Positions 33,409 through 41,981 of a stretch of DNA of 41,981 nt are shown piece after piece. Every line of letters begins with the position of its first letter. Positions within the stretch are counted from its first letter, which is position 1. The DNA comes from an uncultured Pelagibacteraceae bacterium (GTDB taxonomy: Bacteria; Pseudomonadota; Alphaproteobacteria; Pelagibacterales; Pelagibacteraceae), in NCBI GenBank assembly GCA_902543405.1, contig CACBYC010000011.1, forward strand, positions 1 to 41,981, read 5' to 3'. The translations under genes were made by a program, and so were the position numbers. The notes beneath the pieces were generated by a model. That model was not told where the DNA came from. It did not search any database and was given only the letters and a program-made list of their open reading frames with translations.

Positions 33409-34115
33409 TGATTGAATTTATTTTAGCTTTTGGAGCTGGTTTGCTTAGCTTTTTATCTCCATGTGTTCTGCCTCTAATACCAGGATATATATCATATATA
33501 TCAGGATCAACTCTTAATGAATTACTTGAAAAAAAAACTGTAAATATTTTTCCTATTATTTTATTTGCAGTCGGATTTTCTATTGTATTCATAAGTTTTG
33601 GAGCTACAGCTACATTTTTAGGCTCTTTAGTATTAGAAAACTCTTATCAACTCAGAATTGGAGCTGGAATAATCATTATAATATTTTCTTTACAAATATT
33701 AGGGCTCATAAATCTTAAGTTTTTAAATTATGAGAAGAGATTTCAGACAAATAACAATACTGGAATAATAAGTTCAATATTAATTGGTATGGCTTTTGGA
33801 TTTGGCTGGACACCTTGTATTGGTCCAATTTTAGGATCAATTCTCGCAATCGCTTCAACCGAAGATAGTATTAATAAAGGAATTGGTCTTTTATCATTTT
33901 ATTCTCTTGGACTAGCAATTCCCTTTGTTCTATCAGGTTACTTGATACAAAAATTTATGATTTTTTCTAAAAATCTAAAAGCGAAGATGAAGATGATAAA
34001 TATGTTTGGTGGATCTCTACTGTTAATTACAGGAGTACTAATGATTACCAATCAGTTGCAAGCTTTAGGTTATTATCTTCTTGAGTATATGCCTTTTTTA
34101 CAAAGCATAGGTTAA
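33408..34115 (+). CDS. ccdA: CcdA-like cytochrome c biogenesis / thiol-disulfide membrane protein
   Basis: A 235-aa membrane protein with six predicted helices. The redox-active cysteine pair of the CcdA/DsbD-beta family is at Cys19 (LSPCVLPL) and Cys137 (WTPCIGP). It moves electrons from cytoplasmic thioredoxin to periplasmic thiol proteins, for cytochrome c maturation or disulfide repair. The start codon shares its A with the ppc stop (TAATG). No partner thioredoxin-like gene is in the window. A link to sugar metabolism is not obvious. It ends 1 nt before the convergent gene's stop. Confidence 0.9.
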   Translation: MIEFILAFGAGLLSFLSPCVLPLIPGYISYISGSTLNELLEKKTVNIFPIILFAVGFSIVFISFGATATFLGSLVLENSYQLRIGAGIIIIIFSLQILGLINLKFLNYEKRFQTNNNTGIISSILIGMAFGFGWTPCIGPILGSILAIASTEDSINKGIGLLSFYSLGLAIPFVLSGYLIQKFMIFSKNLKAKMKMINMFGGSLLLITGVLMITNQLQALGYYLLEYMPFLQSIG

Positions 34116-34116
34116 A

Positions 34117-35235
34117 TTAATTTATATTAAACTTTCTTTGTAAATGTCTAAGCTTGCTATCAGTACTATCATATTCAATATAGCACCCTTGTAAAAATCT
34201 TTTACCCTCATTCGGATTAAATTCTGTTCTACCATGAAGCAATCTGTAATTATCCATCATAATTAAATCTCCGGACATTAATCTAAATTCTATTCTATAG
34301 AAATCAGAGTTATATAAATCAGATAATTTTTTTCTAGCCTTATAATAAAGGTCTAGCTCCTCTTTTTTTAAAACCGGTACGTAATCAAGCCGAGGACTAA
34401 ATCTAACCTGTTTAAAATTCTTGTTTTCATCGAGCTCTATTAATTCAGACCAGTCTTCTAAAATCACATCTTTATCAATAAATTTAAATTTTACTTTTAC
34501 TTTAGTTAATATTTCATAATATTCAGGAAAGTCTTTTTTTAAATCTTCAGTAACAGTATAACCATCAACCAATGTAGATAAACCACCGGTTACTTCATTC
34601 TCAATACAATGCAATATCTGAATACAAGGGACTGGATTTCTATATGGATTATCGGTATGAGGAGCCAAAGGCAAAGGTGTATATGCAAGATCATTAGGAT
34701 TAGGTTTTGACGAAACATTAAAGTGTTCACCGAAATTAGTTCTTCTAACACTGCCCACAGAGTTGGCAAATTTGATTAAATAATTATTGTGAGTTGGAAC
34801 ATTCTTTAAAATTGCAAATCCATACTTGTAAAAAGAAGCAAGTAATTCATGCATTTCAACACTTTCATAAATATTCTCATGAAAATTAAATTTTTTTACA
34901 TCATTAAGTGAAGAAGTCCATTTTACTTTTTCTTTAATTTTAATAATTGAGTTGGAATTTTTAAATTCTCGAATTATTTTATTAATATCAATTTTAGTTT
35001 CTATTCCATCTGAAAAAGTTATGTTTAAGAGGTCCTTTTCAATTATTGCTGACTTTATAATGACGTCTGATTCCATGGTGCTTGGATCAAATAGTCTCTG
35101 CTGTGTTTTTTGATCCAATAATTCAACATTTTCTACTCTTTCTCTAAGCCAAAAAGGATGAATTTCTTCATTCAGATTTTCATCTATAAAGAAAACCTTA
35201 TTATTATCTAATTCAATTTTCATAAAATTGAGCAT
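34117..35235 (-). CDS. Gamma-butyrobetaine-hydroxylase-like Fe(II)/2-oxoglutarate dioxygenase
   Basis: A 372-aa protein. The N-terminal DUF971/BBOX-like domain is about 1-100 and the TauD-type catalytic domain about 120-372. Iron ligands are His193 and Asp195 (PHTDNPYRNP) and His334 (LLHGRTEF); the 2-oxoglutarate-binding Arg is in GKRFLQG. The N-terminal domain of animal BBOX1 binds zinc through cysteines after the WLRD motif; here WLRERVENVELL has none. Relatives hydroxylate gamma-butyrobetaine, trimethyllysine or other quaternary amines. Marine bacteria use such enzymes for carnitine-like compounds, so that is a plausible role. ATG 35223 (Met5) is an equally good start. It is divergent from the gene at 35285. 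Confidence 0.86.
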   Translation of the reverse strand: MLNFMKIELDNNKVFFIDENLNEEIHPFWLRERVENVELLDQKTQQRLFDPSTMESDVIIKSAIIEKDLLNITFSDGIETKIDINKIIREFKNSNSIIKIKEKVKWTSSLNDVKKFNFHENIYESVEMHELLASFYKYGFAILKNVPTHNNYLIKFANSVGSVRRTNFGEHFNVSSKPNPNDLAYTPLPLAPHTDNPYRNPVPCIQILHCIENEVTGGLSTLVDGYTVTEDLKKDFPEYYEILTKVKVKFKFIDKDVILEDWSELIELDENKNFKQVRFSPRLDYVPVLKKEELDLYYKARKKLSDLYNSDFYRIEFRLMSGDLIMMDNYRLLHGRTEFNPNEGKRFLQGCYIEYDSTDSKLRHLQRKFNIN

Positions 35236-35284
35236 TAATTAAAAAATATCTTTAATCAAGAGAAATTAAGTAGTATTTGGAATT

Positions 35285-36088
35285 ATGGATAGCAATCTAA
35301 TAATTAAAAATAATGAATTTCCAAAGTTTTTGAACCAACTAGCAATTGATTTAACAAATTTTTATTTTAAAAAACTCAATAAGCCTTTTAAAGTAAATAA
35401 TAAATTATTTGGCAAAGGATATGACCCTGTTACTACATGCGATAAAGCTTTTGAAAAATTCATTAGAGCAAAGATAGGCAAAAAATTTCCTGGTCATGAA
35501 ATTATTGGAGAGGAATTCGGTTACAAAAAAACTAAAAGTGATTTTAGTTGGGTAATTGATCCCATAGATGGAACCAGGTCATTTGTAATAGGAAGTCCTA
35601 CTTGGAGTAATTTAATATCTGTAAATTATAAAGGCAATCCTATATTTGGTTTGGCAAACTTCCCAATGTTAAACAAATATTATTACAATCAATCTTCAAA
35701 AATTGCATATGTTGTTGAAAATAAAAAAAGAAAAAAAATATTAGTCAACAAGAATGTTAAATTTAAATATATTAAATTAACTGCTGGTTTTCATGGAGCT
35801 ATTTCTTTAAATAAACAAAAAAAAATTCCAAAGCTTCTTAAATTAATACAATTTCCTTGTTCAGATGCATTATCATATGCTCAGATATGTGAAGGTAGAA
35901 TTGATGTTGTCATACAATGTAATAATAAAATTTGGGACATTCATCCACTAATACCAATTATTAATGCTGCTGGTGGTATTGTAACAACTTGGGACAATCA
36001 AAATGCAAAACAGGCAGGACATGTAGTGGTATCATCCAATAAAACAATTCATAAAAAAATATTAGGTTTGCTAAAACCCGTCGTTTAA
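35285..36088 (+). CDS. hisN: Inositol-monophosphatase-family phosphatase, HisN-like (histidinol-phosphatase)
   Basis: A 267-aa metal-dependent phosphatase. The metal-binding motifs are GEE (75-77), DPIDGT (92-97) and WD at 217-218 (IWDIHPL). The sequence GSPTWSNLISV after DPIDGTRSF is closer to HisN-type histidinol-phosphate phosphatases than to SuhB. It would remove phosphate from L-histidinol phosphate in histidine synthesis; inositol monophosphatase is the alternative. No other his gene is adjacent. It is the first of four plus-strand genes with gaps of 2, 11 and 1 nt. Confidence 0.85.
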   Translation: MDSNLIIKNNEFPKFLNQLAIDLTNFYFKKLNKPFKVNNKLFGKGYDPVTTCDKAFEKFIRAKIGKKFPGHEIIGEEFGYKKTKSDFSWVIDPIDGTRSFVIGSPTWSNLISVNYKGNPIFGLANFPMLNKYYYNQSSKIAYVVENKKRKKILVNKNVKFKYIKLTAGFHGAISLNKQKKIPKLLKLIQFPCSDALSYAQICEGRIDVVIQCNNKIWDIHPLIPIINAAGGIVTTWDNQNAKQAGHVVVSSNKTIHKKILGLLKPVV

Positions 36089-36090
36089 TA

Positions 36091-36822
36091 ATGGAAATTC
36101 TTGTTCTTCAACACATTAAAATTGAAGATCCCGGTTATATAAAAGATTTAATGATCAAAGATGGAGTTAATATTAGAACAATTGAATTAGATGAAGGTGA
36201 AAAAATTCCAAATAATCTAAATTTTTTTGACGGAATGCTATGTATGGGCGGACCTATGGATACATGGATGGAAAAGGATTATCCTTGGCTTATAGATGAA
36301 AAAAATAAAATTAAAGAGTTTGTTGTAGAATTAAATAAGCCATACTTAGGTTTTTGTCTAGGATGTCAATTGCTAGGAGAAGTAATTGGAGGAAAAGTAG
36401 TTAAAACTAATAATCCAGAAATTGGAATGATGGATATAAATTTTTTGGATGAAAAAAAGAAAGATATACTTTTTGCAGATTTTCCAGAAAAAATTACATC
36501 ATTACAATGGCACTCTTATGAAGTTAAAGAATTAGAAAAAAATAAAGATGTAACATTAATTGCTTCATCAAAAGAGACAAAATATCAGATATTTAGATAT
36601 AAAAATAGTGCTTATGGTATCCAATTCCACATAGAGATTAAGGATACAACAGTAAATGATTGGGGGTGCGTACCTGAGTATAAAGCATCTTTAGAAAACC
36701 AATTAGGACAAGGTGCGCTAGAAAAATTTGATAAAGAAGCTAAAGAAAATATGCAAGATATGAATAATTATTCAAAAATTTTGTATACAAAATTTAAGAG
36801 TGATATCATAAACAAAAAATAG
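36091..36822 (+). CDS. Class I glutamine amidotransferase (GATase1) domain protein
   Basis: A 243-aa stand-alone GATase1. The nucleophile is Cys89 in LGFCLGCQLLGE. The oxyanion region is LCMGGPMDTW, and the His-Glu pair is in GIQFHIEI. Proteins of this size are often annotated as GMP synthase domain, but no synthetase part follows; they resemble gamma-glutamyl hydrolase-type or defence-related amidotransferases whose acceptors are unknown. It would release ammonia from glutamine or cut a gamma-glutamyl bond. It lies 2 nt after hisN and 11 nt before the AhpD-like gene. Confidence 0.83.
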   Translation: MEILVLQHIKIEDPGYIKDLMIKDGVNIRTIELDEGEKIPNNLNFFDGMLCMGGPMDTWMEKDYPWLIDEKNKIKEFVVELNKPYLGFCLGCQLLGEVIGGKVVKTNNPEIGMMDINFLDEKKKDILFADFPEKITSLQWHSYEVKELEKNKDVTLIASSKETKYQIFRYKNSAYGIQFHIEIKDTTVNDWGCVPEYKASLENQLGQGALEKFDKEAKENMQDMNNYSKILYTKFKSDIINKK

Positions 36823-36833
36823 GAGGAAATAAG

Positions 36834-37220
36834 ATGTTCAAACCAATTGAAGAAAAAGATGCAACTGGCAAAGTAAAAGAAATTTTTGATGAAATAAAAG
36901 AAGCTCGACAAATAACTGAAATTCCGAATTTTTGGAAAACTATGGCTAATAGTCCAGAAACATTAGAAAGAACTTGGAGATCATTACAACAAGTAATGGG
37001 AAAAGGTGAATTAGATCCTGCTGTAAAGGAGCTTATTTATGTTGCAGTTTCAATTACTAACAATTGTGAATATTGTATTAAATCTCATTCCTTAGCAGCC
37101 AGAAAAAAAGGTGCAACAGATGGAATGATAAACGAAATGATCGCAATAGTTGGAATGGCAAATGAAACAAATCGTTTAGTTGAAGGTTATCAAGTAGAGG
37201 TAGATAACTTTTTAAAATAA
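36834..37220 (+). CDS. Carboxymuconolactone decarboxylase / AhpD-like protein
   Basis: A 128-aa helical protein of the CMD family. The redox motif is Cys78-x-x-Cys81 with His85 (NNCEYCIKSH), the AhpD-type proton-relay site, so peroxidase or disulfide-reductase activity is more likely than lactone decarboxylation. It has a full AGGAGG ribosome-binding site 9 nt before its ATG, the strongest in this stretch, suggesting more protein than its operon partners. The partner peroxiredoxin is not in the window. Confidence 0.87.
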   Translation: MFKPIEEKDATGKVKEIFDEIKEARQITEIPNFWKTMANSPETLERTWRSLQQVMGKGELDPAVKELIYVAVSITNNCEYCIKSHSLAARKKGATDGMINEMIAIVGMANETNRLVEGYQVEVDNFLK

Positions 37221-37221
37221 A

Positions 37222-37566
37222 ATGAATTTCGATTTTGTCTACAAGATATGCACAAAATCAGAGTGGAGTAATGCAAAACAAAATAATATTTTTAAAGGCA
37301 CTACATTAGATTTAAAAGATGGTTATATTCATTTTTCAGACAAAGATCAGATCAAGCAAACACTAAATAAGTTTTATGTTAATCAAACTAATTTAATAAT
37401 TCTTAAAGTGGATGCTCTAAAATTAAAAAATCTGGTTTGGGAGCAATCAACTGATGGCAACATGTTTCCACATTTATACTCAGATCTAAATTTAGATTTT
37501 GTAGTTAAAGAATATATGATCAATTTAAAAGATGACGGTAAGCATGATCTGCCAGATGAACTTTAA
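37222..37566 (+). CDS. DUF952 family protein
   Basis: A 114-aa cytoplasmic protein matching the DUF952 pattern: VYKICTKSEW at the start, DGYIHFS near residues 34-40, the mid-protein LKVDALKL, and WEQSTDGNMFPHLY near 73-86. Function is not known; the fold is related to ADP-ribosyl transferase-like domains in some descriptions. It starts 1 nt after the AhpD-like gene and ends 3 nt before a convergent gene. Confidence 0.82.
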   Translation: MNFDFVYKICTKSEWSNAKQNNIFKGTTLDLKDGYIHFSDKDQIKQTLNKFYVNQTNLIILKVDALKLKNLVWEQSTDGNMFPHLYSDLNLDFVVKEYMINLKDDGKHDLPDEL

Positions 37567-37569
37567 TAT

Positions 37570-37905
37570 TTAATTTGATTTTCCTACTAAATTAACAATT
37601 AAAACTCCAGATATAATTAGTATTAGACCTATAATTGTAAAAAAGTCAGGAATTTGATTAAATTTATAAATTCCCACAATAGAAGTAGCTATTATACATA
37701 AGCCTGCGAATGAAGCATATGTTACGCCAACAGGAATAGTTTTCATAACTAAGGATAGTGTATACATACATGCAACTATTGTTATTGCTGTAAAGACACT
37801 TGGTAAAAATATTGTAAAACCATTTGCAGCTTTGGCAAAACCATTTGATGCTGTACCAAGAGCAACTGCAATAATTAAGATTATATAAGCTGTTATATTA
37901 CTCAT
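37570..37905 (-). CDS. SMR-family small membrane protein without the catalytic glutamate
   Basis: 111 aa from ATG 37905 (a TTG one codon earlier is unlikely), with four membrane helices. Alignment to EmrE is gap-free at the start: A13-V14-A15-L16-G17-T18 against A-E14-V-I-G-T, so the essential Glu14 is Val. In the IPVGVTYASFAG segment (57-68) Tyr63 matches EmrE Tyr60, but Phe66 replaces Trp63. A proton-coupled drug efflux role is therefore doubtful; it may be an EamA-like half-size carrier or structural subunit. It is encoded 45 nt after the cupredoxin gene, at the end of the small-protein operon. Confidence 0.8.
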   Translation of the reverse strand: MSNITAYIILIIAVALGTASNGFAKAANGFTIFLPSVFTAITIVACMYTLSLVMKTIPVGVTYASFAGLCIIATSIVGIYKFNQIPDFFTIIGLILIISGVLIVNLVGKSN

Positions 37906-37950
37906 CAATTAAGAATAATATTATCTAAAATTAATATCTATAAAATTATA

Positions 37951-38448
37951 TTATTCAATAATAATTGGCCCAACCATTCCAGTTTCATAATGACCCGGAA
38001 TATTACACGCCATTTCTAAAGAAATATCTTTTGAAAACTTCCAAATAATTTCTCCTGTTTTATTTGGCTCTAGCATTACACTATTTGCGTGTTTATGGCC
38101 TAATGAGTGATCTTTTTTAGACATTTCTTTCATTTTTTTATGATCAATACGGTCGCCTAAAAGAATATCGTGTTCAATTAATCTTGCCATTTCGGGTTGG
38201 TGATCAATATGCATCTTTTTAGTGCCAATATTATATTCATGTACCAGTTCACCTAAATTTTTAACAATTATTTTTACTGTTTCACCTTTTTTAACTTGAA
38301 TTGAACTTGGCTCATAATAATTGTCATACATCTTTACTTCTATTACTCTAGTAACATCATTTGGATTACCCTTAGATCCAATCATCTTCATTGAAGCTGC
38401 ATTTGAATTAAAGGCGATAAAAATAAATAAAAGTATTAGTTTTTTCAT
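37951..38448 (-). CDS. Secreted cupredoxin-like copper protein with a His/Met-rich insertion
   Basis: 165 aa. The signal peptide is residues 1-17 (FNSNAA). The cupredoxin core carries type-1 copper ligands His70 (VHEYNIG), Cys148, His153 and Met158 (ACNIPGHYETGM). Between strands, residues 79-120 hold a long loop with about seven His and five Met, absent from azurin or plastocyanin. It suggests extra copper sites, as in periplasmic copper carriers. Its ATG overlaps the stop of the upstream SnoaL-like gene. Role may be electron transfer or copper handling in the periplasm. Confidence 0.88.
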   Translation of the reverse strand: MKKLILLFIFIAFNSNAASMKMIGSKGNPNDVTRVIEVKMYDNYYEPSSIQVKKGETVKIIVKNLGELVHEYNIGTKKMHIDHQPEMARLIEHDILLGDRIDHKKMKEMSKKDHSLGHKHANSVMLEPNKTGEIIWKFSKDISLEMACNIPGHYETGMVGPIIIE

Positions 38449-38768
38449 TATTTAGGCATTGGTGTTGCGCCAGTCTCTAAACTCATGATTTTTCCATTAT
38501 CATATTTATAGACTGCCATTACTGCTTCTGTATTTCCGTCATCAAATGTTACAAATGCGTGGTGTACACCCACTTCATCATTTTCATATACAACTCGTGT
38601 ATCTCTTTGATTAATATCACCACTCATCGCCCATTTGATCACTTCAGCTTTACCTAAAGTATTTCCTGATTTATGCATTGTGAATTTAAAGTCATCATGC
38701 AAAAGCTCATTCATAGCTGCTTCATCTTTATTTTTTAATGCAGCACTGTATTTTTCTAATATTGACAT
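38448..38768 (-). CDS. SnoaL/NTF2-like small protein, copy 1
   Basis: 106 aa from ATG 38768, which has AAAGGAG 5 nt before it; a longer frame to 38792 is not supported. It begins MSILEKYSAALKNKD and ends DGKIMSLETGATPMPK. The helix-then-curved-sheet pattern and the LHDDFK motif are those of SnoaL-like/NTF2 proteins, which are ligand-binding or small isomerase/hydrolase scaffolds. It is a paralogue of the gene at 41494: both share MSILEK, HDD, YENDE and DGKI-x-x-LETGAT. The operon order places them at opposite ends of a block of nine genes. Confidence 0.8.
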   Translation of the reverse strand: MSILEKYSAALKNKDEAAMNELLHDDFKFTMHKSGNTLGKAEVIKWAMSGDINQRDTRVVYENDEVGVHHAFVTFDDGNTEAVMAVYKYDNGKIMSLETGATPMPK

Positions 38769-38778
38769 TTTATCTCCT

Positions 38779-39066
38779 TTATACTCCTTCAACTATTATT
38801 CCATTAGTATCTGCGTTATCTAATCGAATTTGTTTTATTGGTTTATATTCTTCAGAATTATACCATTCTTTCGCTTTCTCGTAACTTGGAAATTTTATCA
38901 CAACTGTCCTTGGATGCTGCCATGACCCTTCAATAGTCTCGCTGCTACCACCTCTTACAAGATACTCCCCACCAAATTTTTCTGCAGTGGGTTTAACTTT
39001 GTCTATGTATTCCTTATAATTTTCAGGATTGTTAACATTAAGGTTAAAGATCGCATAACCACTCAT
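38779..39066 (-). CDS. DUF1330 family protein
   Basis: 95 aa. The pattern YAIFNLNVNNPENYKEYIDKV, FGGEYLVRGG, HPRTVVIKFPSYEKAKEWYNSEEY is the DUF1330 signature, a small dimeric alpha/beta-barrel (ferredoxin-like) fold of unknown activity. It has the ribosome-binding site CAGGAG 7 nt upstream. The start lies 2 nt after the GYD-protein stop. Confidence 0.9.
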   Translation of the reverse strand: MSGYAIFNLNVNNPENYKEYIDKVKPTAEKFGGEYLVRGGSSETIEGSWQHPRTVVIKFPSYEKAKEWYNSEEYKPIKQIRLDNADTNGIIVEGV

Positions 39067-39068
39067 AA

Positions 39069-39392
39069 TTATTCTCCTGGTTTAATAACAGACTTTGTGG
39101 CATCTGCAGCATTTTGAAAAGCTTTATTGTAGTCAATAACTTCATGTACCATCAAATCATCCATTAGTCCTGAATTTTTAAAAGCAATCTTCAAGGCTAG
39201 TGCTTGTTCATAATCTCCTTCTACACATGAGATAACATCAAATCTACCTCTTACCCATTCATAGCTGATCAATTTTAAACCAGCAGCCTCGGTAACTTTC
39301 TTAGTCGATGCATATCTATCCGCAGAAGGATCATTTTGCATTCTTTTCATTAATTCTGCACTTATTTTGCCAATCAAATAAAATCTTGCCAT
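39069..39392 (-). CDS. GYD-domain family protein
   Basis: 107 aa from ATG 39392, 1 nt after the upstream stop; the longer frame to 39404 overlaps that gene. The motif AAGLKLISYEWVRGRFDVISCVEGDYEQALALKIAF is the GYD-domain pattern (a GxYD element is seen as GRFDV), a ferredoxin-like small fold. Function is unknown. It lacks its own Shine-Dalgarno site, so it is probably translated by coupling to the gene before it. Confidence 0.75.
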   Translation of the reverse strand: MARFYLIGKISAELMKRMQNDPSADRYASTKKVTEAAGLKLISYEWVRGRFDVISCVEGDYEQALALKIAFKNSGLMDDLMVHEVIDYNKAFQNAADATKSVIKPGE

Positions 39393-39393
39393 A

Positions 39394-39684
39394 TTACATT
39401 TCAACTTTCGTTAAATCCCAAGCAGTCATTTTGATAACACATTCATCGTAAATTTCCTTTCCAACTGGATGTGTACCAGATATTAGTTCTTTCATTTTTT
39501 CCATATTATGAACAAATACCTTAAACATTACGCCACTTTTATCTGGCTTTACTGCTCCTATAGTTTTTTCTGGATGAGCTGCAGATTTTCTCACACTCAT
39601 ACCTTCATCTGATTGCATCCATCCCATAAATTTTTCAAGTTTTCCCTCTTTCAAATCTACGATCACTAAAACTTCTTTTTCCAT
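39394..39684 (-). CDS. Unrecognised small protein (ferredoxin-fold-like), 96 aa
   Basis: I do not recognise a named family. It starts with a hydrophobic strand (EVLVIVDLKEG), then two helices, a second strand VMFKVFVHNMEKM and a final strand VIKMTAWDL, the pattern of dimeric alpha/beta-barrel (ABM/DABB-like) proteins. It has six methionines (eight counting both ends) and no signal peptide. A strong GGAGG site precedes the ATG. The neighbours are the 95-aa protein upstream and the GYD protein downstream. Confidence 0.7.
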   Translation of the reverse strand: MEKEVLVIVDLKEGKLEKFMGWMQSDEGMSVRKSAAHPEKTIGAVKPDKSGVMFKVFVHNMEKMKELISGTHPVGKEIYDECVIKMTAWDLTKVEM

Positions 39685-39693
39685 TTTTTCCTC

Positions 39694-39981
39694 CTATTTG
39701 TTAAAATCGAAAACTTCTTCTTTAACCTCAGTAAATTGGTGAGGTTCAAAAAAATCATTCATCTGAGTAAGCTGTTCATTAATAGCATCAGTACTTTCTG
39801 CCATCCAATGACAAAACATTGTCATAGTATCACCTGGAGTGTAATATGTCATTTGGCATTTAGCTTTATCGCTAGTGGAAGATTTAATCATATCTTCTCT
39901 GGACATGCCGCCTAAAACCTCGTTAAATTTGTCTTTCATTTCTTTAGATTTAAAAGTGTGAGTTACCATATAATATTTCAT
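39694..39981 (-). CDS. Unrecognised small protein, 95 aa
   Basis: No family recognised. It begins MKYYMVTHTFKSKEMKDKF, contains a second strand CQMTYYTPGDTMTMFCHWMAES with Cys at about 42 and 57, and ends in an acidic/aromatic tail. The beta-alpha-beta-beta alternation suits a ferredoxin-like fold, which is an inference from sequence only. It carries a strong AAAAGGAG ribosome-binding site. It sits 53 nt downstream of the secreted barrel protein gene. Confidence 0.68.
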   Translation of the reverse strand: MKYYMVTHTFKSKEMKDKFNEVLGGMSREDMIKSSTSDKAKCQMTYYTPGDTMTMFCHWMAESTDAINEQLTQMNDFFEPHQFTEVKEEVFDFNK

Positions 39982-40034
39982 TTTTTTCTCCTTTTTTTTA
40001 TTTCGTATTTTAAATCAATCTTATGATTATTCAA

Positions 40035-40517
40035 TTATTTCATTAAAGAATATCCACCTTTAAAATAAATTGATGAGGCAAATTTATTTTCTTGGGCTGA
40101 GTTAATTGGTGTGTACCCTGTTGAGCCACTACATTCTATTCCTTTATATTTTCCTGTTCCCCCTAAACATTTAAATGTACCATTCATTGAGTCTCCAAGT
40201 GGAATTTCGTAGTATGTAAAAATAGTATCCCCATCCATTTGATTTATTTTACAGTGTCCCATTTCAAATCCCTTTCCTGGGATTGTACCTGCGCCAATGC
40301 AATATTGTGAAGCATTATCCATGAATGTTGTACCTTCGACTGCCATTAATCCTCCAACTCCATCGTAAGTAAAAGTTAAAAAATTACCCTCGTTATCAGT
40401 AAGAAATTTGTTATCTCCAACAATAAAACCTTTAAGATCAATTTTTCCTTTATGACCGTCTGCAAAACTTGATGTTGTAAATATTAAAAACAACATAATT
40501 ACATATATTTTTTTCAT
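40035..40517 (-). CDS. Secreted beta-barrel protein (allene-oxide-cyclase/dirigent-like pattern)
   Basis: 160 aa. The signal peptide is residues 1-20 (TTSSFADG). The rest is predicted all-beta, with GTFKCLGGTGKYKGIECSGS near residues 112-131; G-x-G-K-(Y/F)-x-G-I-x-G-S is the repeat motif of dirigent/allene-oxide-cyclase-like barrels and DUF3224-type proteins. Three cysteines (about 73, 90, 116 and 125 counting all four) could form disulfides in the periplasm. It is the only secreted member in the central part of the small-protein operon. Function unknown. Confidence 0.72.
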   Translation of the reverse strand: MKKIYVIMLFLIFTTSSFADGHKGKIDLKGFIVGDNKFLTDNEGNFLTFTYDGVGGLMAVEGTTFMDNASQYCIGAGTIPGKGFEMGHCKINQMDGDTIFTYYEIPLGDSMNGTFKCLGGTGKYKGIECSGSTGYTPINSAQENKFASSIYFKGGYSLMK

Positions 40518-40525
40518 TATTAGAA

Positions 40526-40819
40526 TTATCCTTTGTGGTTCATTACAGATTCATCAGTCATCATGGTCATTTTAGATTGGTCCATTATTACTCCAGAATC
40601 TATTCTTGCTTGAGTTAGTTCTGCATCTCCACCAAAACCTTTTAAGCCCTCGGGTGATTCAAAATGAATAACTACAGTCATAGCATTATCATCTTCTTTA
40701 TCTGCACCTGCAAAAGCTATAGTCATTCCATACTTTTTAAGTTTCTCACTATTTGCAAGCATCATTTCCTTCCAAGAATTAAAACCTTTTGAAAGTTTTT
40801 GTTCTATTTTTACAAACAT
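40526..40819 (-). CDS. Unrecognised small protein (ABM/DABB-like pattern), 97 aa
   Basis: Begins MFVKIEQKLSKGFNSWKEMM and has a central strand NAMTVVIHFESPEGLKGF flanked by helices, the layout of an ABM-type ferredoxin-like fold. The first half shares the SKGFNSWKEMMLANSEKLKKYGMT form with the next protein upstream (KDWAHWKKMFDEHSGPREAAGIK), so the two may be distant paralogues. An AAAGGAG site precedes the ATG by 7 nt. Function unknown. Confidence 0.7.
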   Translation of the reverse strand: MFVKIEQKLSKGFNSWKEMMLANSEKLKKYGMTIAFAGADKEDDNAMTVVIHFESPEGLKGFGGDAELTQARIDSGVIMDQSKMTMMTDESVMNHKG

Positions 40820-40845
40820 AATATATCTCCTTTTTTTTTCTTACT

Positions 40846-41115
40846 TTAATCAGAGCAAACGCTCATTACTGTTGTCTCTTGTTTATGACCAGATTCCGCA
40901 ATTACTTTAGCATTCTCTGGATTCTGCATAAATTTTTGCATAGTGTCTGCTGCTGGTGTTTCCATCACAATATGTACTTTATTTGGATTTTCTATTTCAT
41001 TACCTACGTAAATAGTTTTAATACCTGCTGCTTCCCTAGGACCAGAGTGCTCATCAAACATTTTTTTCCAGTGAGCCCAGTCTTTTACTTCAAAGTTACC
41101 AACCATTTTTACCAT
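40846..41115 (-). CDS. DUF3764-like small protein
   Basis: 89 aa from ATG 41115, which follows GGGGAG; a longer frame to 41169 overlaps the cupin gene. The pattern is a W-x-x-W/FDEHSGPREAAGIKTIYVG block, VHIVMETPAAD in the second strand and ENAKVIAESGHKQETTVMSV at the end. It resembles small proteins labelled DUF3764 in marine bacteria and cyanobacteria, from memory and not certain. Predicted ferredoxin-like fold, cytoplasmic, function unknown. Confidence 0.68.
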   Translation of the reverse strand: MVKMVGNFEVKDWAHWKKMFDEHSGPREAAGIKTIYVGNEIENPNKVHIVMETPAADTMQKFMQNPENAKVIAESGHKQETTVMSVCSD

Positions 41116-41116
41116 T

Positions 41117-41467
41117 TTATTCTCCCCAAACCCCGGCAAACTCATATGCTTCAACAGGTTCATTGCCAACTACCCAAGCGTCATGACCTGGTGTTACGGA
41201 GTAAGAATCTCCTGCTTTATATGTAACCTCTGTTCCATCATCGTGTTTTGCACAAACAGATCCCTTTGTGATAATTCCAATATGGTTTGCCTGACAACTG
41301 TCAGTTCCAATATGTGGCTTAACATCTGTAGACCATTTCCATCCTGGTTTTAAATGTAATCTAACTACTCTTTGACCGCCTACTTTAACTGCTTCTATTT
41401 TAGCATTATTAAACTTATCAACTACCTCATCTGCTTTATCAAAGGTTTTAACTTCAATACTACTCAT
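41117..41467 (-). CDS. Small single-domain cupin
   Basis: 116 aa with one cupin barrel. Motif 1 is weak (HLKPGWKWSTDVKPHIGT, followed by CQANHIGIITKGSV) and motif 2 is GDSYSVTPGHDAWVVGNE. Possible metal ligands are His in KPH, NHIG and GHDAW. Such cupins can be dioxygenases, isomerases or sensors; no call beyond the fold is justified. A strong AGAAGGAG site precedes the ATG. Its stop codon is 1 nt from the next start, and the next gene's ribosome-binding site lies inside its end. Confidence 0.85.
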   Translation of the reverse strand: MSSIEVKTFDKADEVVDKFNNAKIEAVKVGGQRVVRLHLKPGWKWSTDVKPHIGTDSCQANHIGIITKGSVCAKHDDGTEVTYKAGDSYSVTPGHDAWVVGNEPVEAYEFAGVWGE

Positions 41468-41493
41468 ATTAAACTCCTTCTGTTAGTTTATAA

Positions 41494-41823
41494 TTATTTT
41501 GGTATTTTGGTTGCGCCTGTTTCGAGTTCAATGATTTTACCATCTTTAAATTTCCAATAACACATTAAAGCCTCTTTATTTCCATCATCGGCATAAGTAA
41601 CAATAGAATGATCAAAACCTATTTCATCGTTTTCATATAAAATTCTATATTTATCAACTTTCATGAAACCTTTGTTAATTGCTTCAATCATACCTGTTTT
41701 TCCACTTTCAGTATAGGCTCCCTGAAGATGAGAATATCTCTTATAATCATCATGAATAATCTCAGCTGCTGTTGCACCATCTTTTTCCATGATTGCTTTA
41801 TTAAGTTTTTCTAAAATTGACAT
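41494..41823 (-). CDS. SnoaL/NTF2-like small protein, copy 2
   Basis: 109 aa, beginning MSILEKLNKAIMEKD and ending DGKIIELETGATKIPK. It is a paralogue of the protein encoded at 38448-38768, with the shared blocks HDDYK, LYENDEIG and GN-x-EA-x-M. The pair is roughly one-third identical by eye, so the duplication is not recent. AAGGA lies 6 nt before the ATG. As a SnoaL-like scaffold it could bind or convert a small hydrophobic compound; no catalytic Asp/His pair is certain. Confidence 0.8.
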   Translation of the reverse strand: MSILEKLNKAIMEKDGATAAEIIHDDYKRYSHLQGAYTESGKTGMIEAINKGFMKVDKYRILYENDEIGFDHSIVTYADDGNKEALMCYWKFKDGKIIELETGATKIPK

Positions 41824-41831
41824 ATTGTTCC

Positions 41832-41981
41832 TTACTTCTTCATTGCATTGAACATGCTAAGCGTATCATCAAAAGTCATCATAACTTTAGTTTTTCCCTC
41901 ATCACTTACTTCAAAATAGTGACCAAACATAGTATCCATGTTATCCGCAGTTGCATGAACTCTTGCAAAAACTTTATTTCC
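41832..41981 (-). CDS. Small protein cut by the window end (C-terminal 49 aa)
   Basis: A frame open to the right edge encodes 49 residues, starting GNKVFARVHATADNMDTMFG and ending SMFNAMKK before a TAA at 41834-41832. It is 8 nt upstream of the SnoaL-like gene and in the same direction, so it belongs to the same operon. The strand-helix-strand pattern and the Met content match the other ferredoxin-fold-like proteins of the cluster. The family is not recognised. Confidence 0.75.
   Translation of the reverse strand, partial: GNKVFARVHATADNMDTMFGHYFEVSDEGKTKVMMTFDDTLSMFNAMKK

Follow-up and report, generated by a model that had tools for sequence, protein, structure and literature searches.

A strain-variable array of small-protein genes in SAR11 bacteria with a possible role in small-molecule handling

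Replacement flexible genomic islands of aquatic prokaryotes occupy a fixed position, differ in content between strains and are exchanged by what is attributed to homologous recombination; typically they encode exposed cell-surface structures (PMC4033161; articles are cited from excerpts here and below). For SAR11, variable islands and wide recombination are already known (PMC2217521, PMC7318151, PMC7542561), and the hypervariable regions HVR1-HVR4 of HTCC1062 are likewise variable loci rich in unknown genes (PMC2217521). Here we describe a run of small minus-strand genes, hereafter the array, at positions 37570-41981 of a 41,981-nucleotide stretch (the window, contig CACBYC010000011.1) from an uncultured Pelagibacteraceae bacterium. 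As in flexible islands, close strains carry different sets of genes at one fixed site (40 ordered strings of genes among 79 complete arrays), but the array swaps or drops single co-oriented genes of about 300-500 bp, whose products resemble cytoplasmic or periplasmic small-molecule folds. The HVR entries of HTCC1062 (in part for HVR2 and HVR4) name no such cysK-flanked array (PMC2217521), and no description of it was found in the open-licence literature searched by title or start of the abstract; the words cysteine, sulfide, cupin and multidrug have 0 occurrences in the main texts of PMC12636525 and PMC7318151. What appears to be new is probably a single-gene swappable small-protein array within the flexible-island kind, together with a probable new branch of the SMR family.

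The array is a conserved, co-oriented and selected set with gain, loss and allele exchange gene by gene, and we regard this architecture taken alone as close to certain. The whole statement, in which a modular operon-like array encodes a repertoire of small-molecule-handling proteins, is to us an evenly balanced proposition. In the window the array consists of 12 complete genes (89-165 aa) and one truncated gene (Table 1), with intergenic gaps of -1 to 53 nt; the contig (one of 37 in the genome) stops at 41981, within the array. Open reading frames (ORFs) and start codons were picked by script with a preference for ATG. A Shine-Dalgarno (SD) site with at least 5 matching bases precedes 8/12 array genes against 4/38 other window ORFs of at least 80 aa (Fisher p = 3e-4). 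These figures bear out a preliminary description of the stretch, which had noted a dense minus-strand run of small genes, with gaps from overlap to 53 nt, and good SD sites that are unusual compared to the rest of the window.

For comparison we used the best 80 of 541 confirmed matches to gene F as relatives, all of them Pelagibacteraceae or Pelagibacterales (SAR11) records, so that relatives of the window that carry F are over-represented in the array statistics. An array was called complete when it was closed by an opposite-strand gene and contained an SMR gene, which holds for 79 of 121 loci (66 of the best-80 set and 13 others, window excluded); the presence of SMR in 79/79 arrays follows from this definition. 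Genes J, K and DUF1330 were recovered where the script had called an antisense frame. Complete arrays carry 2-14 pool genes (median 10). Within the window's clade (53 arrays) the optional genes occur in 16 combinations, whereas gene order is kept in 53/53; in deeper branches the order is reshuffled. Neither a gene order conserved nowhere nor genes that always stand alone, the two outcomes named beforehand as speaking against a real set, was therefore found.

The variation reaches down to very close strains. Nine pairs have CysK sequences at least 99.5% identical, and five of these are set apart by 1-2 whole genes, although only two differences underlie the five: secH varies among four genomes, and sec142 takes the place of G. 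Four of six aligned pairs have whole-gene indels ending at stop codons and SD spacers, and the replacement of G by sec142 is seen in the alignment of loci L075 and L087 (L and G numbers denote loci and genomes). Allelic differences also separate the window from its nearest relatives: compared to L080 the window is 98.9% identical overall and 87% in SnoaL gene C; compared to L087 it is 70% identical in DUF1330 and 79% in GYD, with the remaining array genes at 96-100%; and compared to L076 it has K in addition and is 78% identical in gene L, with the array otherwise at 94-100%. Just upstream of F in L077, L090, L097 and L144, a short ORF (c80) occupies the place that sec142 has in other strains. 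The bases before it in L090 agree with the start of sec142, and c80 looks like a decaying sec142 gene.

Among relatives whose flanks are at least 95% identical, the content difference per gene is 0.207 for the array, compared with 0.059 for the upstream and 0.086 for the downstream flank. Identities were compared over 1240 pairs with at least 3 flank genes. The optional genes I, G, secH, sec142 and K show a median identity of 97-99% where the flanks of the same pairs are at about 91-92%, and identities of M and DUF1330 range from 65 to 98%, lying more than 10 points below the flanks in 62% of M pairs and 49% of DUF1330 pairs. The correlation (r) of gene identity with flank divergence is 0.77-0.94 for flank genes and 0.82 for SMR, 0.33-0.40 for GYD, cupredoxin and DUF1330, and 0.08-0.22 for M (0.14), SnL (0.08), J (0.13), I (0.13) and K; SnL, K, J and I occur mostly in closer pairs, and this narrowed range by itself lowers r. 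Across all 13 gene families dN/dS is 0.03-0.24 (equal-length pairs), which indicates purifying selection on each of them at the sequence level.

It might be argued that the site is a recombination hot spot that has gathered unrelated genes, that is, a flexible genomic island of the ordinary sort whose genes share no function. Both content and alleles vary, as such an island would, and wide recombination as well as islands with many hypothetical genes are known from SAR11 (PMC7542561, PMC7318151, PMC2217521). The pool, however, is small and recurrent: 23 families were seen, with proteins of about 200 aa or less that are mostly co-oriented, and F, C and G each give a single match in nearly every genome carrying them. 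Transfer RNA and tmRNA genes are classic insertion sites, and one mini-array in another family (f31, locus L168) adjoins tmRNA and tRNA-Phe genes, but the four SAR11-family loci scanned (L074, L024, L117, L022) have no tRNA at the array site. The array in the window contains no long repeat. An integron cassette array would have an integrase and attC-type inverted repeats between its cassettes; no inverted repeat of at least 16 nt was found here, in a scan that did not include an attC model or a systematic integrase search. Since the set also re-clusters at other sites and in another family, we consider an unrelated gathering of genes improbable. F was not found in viral contigs (41 pattern matches, 0 confirmed) or phages, a search made for F among the array families.

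The re-clustering is as follows. Gene F is present in 29/118 genomes of the window's family, covering 7/14 genera. In the window's genus (g1) the surroundings of the array were read in 18/19 sampled genomes: cysE-cysK lies directly upstream in 14/18, two are cut by a contig end (the window and G069) and two have no cysE-cysK there (G017, G093). Thirteen of the 14 cysE-cysK loci end in one or two same-strand SMR genes, while in G051 the SMR gene is on the other strand; one of the 14, G026, has no further pool gene, and G101, the nineteenth genome, has no match to F, C or G. Genus g4 carries sec124-DUF1330-F-G-mem138-(97 aa)-GYD or a close variant, without cysE-cysK and in two different upstream neighbourhoods, and the single-contig genome G017 carries F-G-fd103-sec124-mem138-SnoaL-DsbA-DUF2798. 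(The labels sec124, sec142, mem138 and fd103 denote families without a Pfam match above cut-off, named as secreted, membrane or barrel-like plus length.) In a class-wide sample F occurs in 5/385 genomes, two of the window's family and three of family f31, and within f31 it occurs in 40/52. This co-clustering, which in the genus takes place at the cysK-SMR site and in other lineages at different sites, upholds together with the purifying selection the preliminary description's view of a really linked set. In L038, L040, L057, L058, L063 and L117, mem138, usually within the array, lies on the opposite strand just before the array genes.

The same description had gone further and suggested a pathway or a multi-subunit system. 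On this view the ferredoxin-fold members would pair and, with SnoaL and cupin proteins, carry one compound through several steps. Such a fixed pathway or hetero-oligomeric machine would fit the tight same-strand packing with SD sites, the order kept throughout the near arrays and the nesting of K, I, secH, G and sec142 on J and SnL. It would also fit the f31 loci (L168-L170, L175-L191), where F is followed by a same-strand SnoaL gene in 20/20; cupin K separates the two genes in 8 of these loci, 4 of which have fd103 in addition. Against a fixed unit stand the close strains that miss members and the 8/28 pairs of optional genes that show all four presence/absence states (some cells resting on a single array). 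Furthermore, among the loci fetched from g2, g3 and g13, F is solitary or beside mem138 only: linkage is strong, not universal. We find no support for a fixed unit in this variation and rate that explanation as quite unlikely. The mini-array F-K-fd103-SnoaL of L168 (8788-10125) stands beside tmRNA and a thymidylate-synthase-like gene (named by eye), and in some g2, g3 and g13 loci F is found close to genes of these same families, which may point to an older location.

What lies beyond the contig end could be read from a single-cell genome locus (L091) that is 99.75% identical to window 34001-41981. In the upstream direction it goes on with the missing part of gene M, followed by cysK, cysE and an MBL-fold gene; a peroxiredoxin gene lies on the other strand. 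The contig end thus partly accounts for the remark in the preliminary description that no large enzyme is included, since cysK and cysE of L091 share the strand of the array and come directly upstream of it. An ECF sigma/anti-sigma pair at the 5' end of the array was considered and rejected, the two upstream genes being CysE and CysK. In other relatives an SQR-like flavoprotein gene lies further upstream of the MBL-fold, CysE and CysK genes. The best models, all below cut-off, are type III SQR (E 7.5e-61) for the flavoprotein and GloB (6e-34) and the sulfur dioxygenase Blh (1e-28) for the MBL-fold protein. L093 and L132 have CysK, with SMR absent from the locus.

Given this sulfur neighbourhood, handling of reactive sulfur is the main chemical rival: a sulfur locus (SQR, persulfide-dioxygenase-like MBL, CysE, CysK) would have the array as its variable end, and the array's small proteins, cupins and cupredoxin would process sulfide, persulfide or organosulfur species such as compounds derived from dimethylsulfoniopropionate. 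CysK is present in 91/121 loci; in those whose neighbourhood was read, CysE and CysK directly precede the arrays and MBL-fold and SQR-like genes often lie further up. SAR11 lacks assimilatory sulfate reduction and depends on reduced sulfur (PMC5069961). However, the arrays of g4, G017 and f31 have no CysE/CysK, cysK and cysE of HTCC1062 are not induced under sulfur limitation (PMC5069961), and the array proteins scanned show no match to a sulfur-specific family. On balance we judge this rival unlikely.

The SMR-family protein at the array's end provides a further comparison with described systems. Like the transporters of the Gdx, Qac, polyamine and lipid subtypes (PMC9574504), it has about 110 aa, belongs to PF00893 and keeps the switch tyrosine. 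The central glutamate is conserved and essential in the Gdx, Qac and polyamine subtypes and is often Asn in lipid SMRs, suggesting that no proton coupling takes place there (PMC9574504). The array protein aligns to EmrE, but at the position of E14 the array-family SMRs have Gly in 123/125 and Tyr in 2/125 anchored sequences (2/127 without the anchor were unscored here), and an acidic residue in the first transmembrane segment (TM1) occurs in 0/125. In this residue the array SMRs differ from the proton-coupled exporters of the Qac, Gdx and polyamine kinds. The switch tyrosine (EmrE Y60 region) is Tyr in 123/123 SMRs in which the motif was found, of 127, and the GXG fulcrum window in the third transmembrane segment reads AGL in 94/123, with the register of the second Gly unscored. 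Genomes G105 and G035 carry a Glu-bearing SMR elsewhere besides their array-family copies. Altogether, the array SMR is probably a new branch of the family. A second SMR-like gene of the window's genome lies on another contig (G000:C13:13952-14272, L158); it is about 35% identical and its TM1 has no acidic residue. In relatives two SMR-like genes are often adjacent at the array end, and the pair may be split in the window's genome.

Folds were predicted with AlphaFold2 (AF2) for two proteins. The model of F (pLDDT 93.8) has olivetolic acid cyclase (OAC), ABM, LsrG and NIPSNAP proteins as Foldseek neighbours (best E 1.6e-4, identity mostly 10-16%), and by this model F is a dimeric alpha/beta-barrel (ABM-like) unit. 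The model of secH (pLDDT 85.5) has dirigent proteins, the cyclase PloI4, pyocyanin demethylase and allene oxide cyclase (AOC) as neighbours (3.5e-5 to 1e-3), and as modelled it is a dirigent/AOC-like barrel. F and secH thus have predicted folds in common with ABM/DABB/NIPSNAP and AOC/dirigent-barrel proteins, but identities in the listed matches are 5-20% and no catalytic residue set or ligand was matched. Of the at least five ferredoxin-fold proteins proposed in the preliminary description, F, the only gene tested for its fold, agrees with the proposal. In a profile comparison of the barrel families, I and J alone match over their full length (hhalign probability 92.5 across 75 columns; I is a paralogue of J), the other strong scores being 21-25 columns at N-terminal signal peptides; these profiles are shallow, since the cupins K and secCup score just 12%, and a distant kinship among the barrels may have escaped them. 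Profile searches against solved structures with F, G, secH and mem138 gave nothing significant.

The individual genes are listed in Table 1. Pfam cut-offs are passed by SMR, cupredoxin, SnoaL_2, DUF1330 and, of the two DUF3764-like genes, J. With members in different Pfam families, tandem duplication of one gene was rejected as the origin of the array. Both SnoaL-like genes named in the preliminary description stand (C and L are 47% identical), yet the truncated gene M is a third one: its complete orthologue in L024 matches SnoaL_2 (E 1.3e-11). Gene B matches the NCBIfam equivalog model of CopI with E 5e-45 and 153 bits, under the cut-off of 280; its cupredoxin fold passes Pfam. A PADLOC scan of 10/13 window array proteins for anti-phage defence systems gave nothing beyond one weak partial match (GYD to Cyclase, E 0.0019, 33 residues). 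Rfam at the gathering cut-off showed no riboswitch or known RNA control in seven sources. Open frames antisense to J and K (window 40879-41226 and 41183-41353, plus strand) are long enough in many relatives to mislead length-based gene callers and are probably a by-product of codon usage. Outside the array, the DUF952 gene (37222-37563) shows two allele classes among relatives (about 75-80% or 92-97% identity).

Table 1. Genes of the array and its flank in the window, in the direction of the array
Feature	Coordinates	Strand	Length	Assignment
Gene M	41832..41981	-	last 49 codons	SnoaL-like, truncated by contig end; no match for the fragment itself
Gene L (SnL)	41494..41823	-	109 aa	SnoaL/DUF4440-like, DUF4440 E 3.7e-4 (below cut-off); optional in relatives
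Gene K	41117..41467	-	116 aa	cupin, Cupin_2 E 4.6e-4 (below cut-off); optional
Gene J	40846..41115	-	89 aa	DUF3764, PF12594 E 2.3e-10 (above cut-off); optional
Gene I	40526..40819	-	97 aa	DUF3764-like, PF12594 E 5.7e-5, 23.6 bits against cut-off 24; optional
Gene H (secH)	40035..40517	-	160 aa	N-terminal signal-like helix and predicted 8-strand barrel, no Pfam match; optional
Gene G	39694..39981	-	95 aa	weakly SCO4226-like, PF14026 E 5.3e-4 (below cut-off); optional
Gene F	39394..39684	-	96 aa	predicted dimeric alpha/beta-barrel (ABM-like) fold, Pfam match at chance level; array marker
Gene E	39069..39392	-	107 aa	GYD-like, PF08734 E 4e-6, 27.2 bits against cut-off 31.4
Gene D	38779..39066	-	95 aa	DUF1330, PF07045 E 2.2e-34; deeply different population alleles
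Gene C (SnC)	38448..38768	-	106 aa	SnoaL-like, PF12680 E 6.5e-8
Gene B	37951..38448	-	165 aa	exported-looking cupredoxin, CopI-like, PF13473 E 3.6e-8
Gene A	37570..37905	-	111 aa	SMR-family membrane protein, PF00893 E 4.7e-13, central glutamate absent (Gly at the EmrE E14 position)
Flank outside array	36834..37566	+		CMD-family and DUF952 genes, convergent with the array

As an overall explanation we propose a modular array that would encode a repertoire of small-molecule-handling proteins. In the home genus it is anchored between cysE-cysK and the SMR-like membrane protein, anchors and order being stable within a clade, while several intervening members are optional or present as deeply different alleles and are exchanged between strains; judging from the pattern, this exchange would evidently proceed by homologous recombination with breakpoints mostly at gene boundaries. 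Each small protein may bind or convert a different class of small molecules that are reactive or foreign to the cell. For the exported-looking cupredoxin, barrel and cupin proteins the site of action would be the periplasm, and the SMR without its glutamate could transport a compound that is neutral or hydrophobic, with no antiport of protons. The repertoire of a strain would then suit the chemistry around it, and the neighbouring genes would supply cysteine and thiols. Two points suggest separate roles: interchangeable members are easier to reconcile with a repertoire than with a fixed chain, and the ABM, AOC/dirigent, SnoaL and cupin folds are known from small enzymes or binders that often need no cofactor. 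A more specific version, an integrase-free chemical-immunity array of SAR11 in which recombination shuffles single-gene cassettes (cyclase-, monooxygenase- and cupin-like) against environmental small molecules with a constant, non-proton-coupled, glutamate-less SMR partner, is speculative and rather unlikely.

Several points weigh against the proposed repertoire, in addition to the narrowed range behind the low r values. The barrel, SnoaL and cupin folds of the array also serve unrelated roles, the array proteins are putative enzymes or binders, the genes form a putative operon judged by spacing, strand and SD sites, and the cysE-cysK neighbours are absent at other array sites. Independence of the members is partial: in the 53-array clade K, I, secH, G and sec142 are always accompanied by J and SnL, I is found only together with secH, and no array has both G and sec142. 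Since gene K of L104 has been lost through an internal deletion that leaves its ends, some of the variation is plain decay. For flanks 92-95% identical the content difference is 0.235 in the array against 0.193 upstream and 0.208 downstream, and for flanks 88-92% identical it is 0.229 against 0.217 and 0.141, so that the excess in the array is clear only among close relatives. Optional genes are not uniformly more alike than their surroundings either, with 33% of 15 G pairs and 16% of secH pairs lying more than 10 points below the flanks, and r is high also for secH (0.85) and SnoaL C (0.72), with F at 0.59. Finally, wide recombination is general in SAR11 (PMC7542561).

The array groups the function-unknown families DUF1330, DUF3764, GYD-like and DUF2798 with a probable new SMR branch. 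SAR11 bacteria are among the most abundant in the ocean and their genomes are strongly streamlined; yet they keep 2-14 tiny tandem genes under purifying selection with exchange gene by gene, which points to a sustained benefit that differs between strains. If the chemical repertoire is true, the array would tie niche differences on a fine scale, among bacteria that are some of the commonest in the sea, to a concrete set of genes open to testing.

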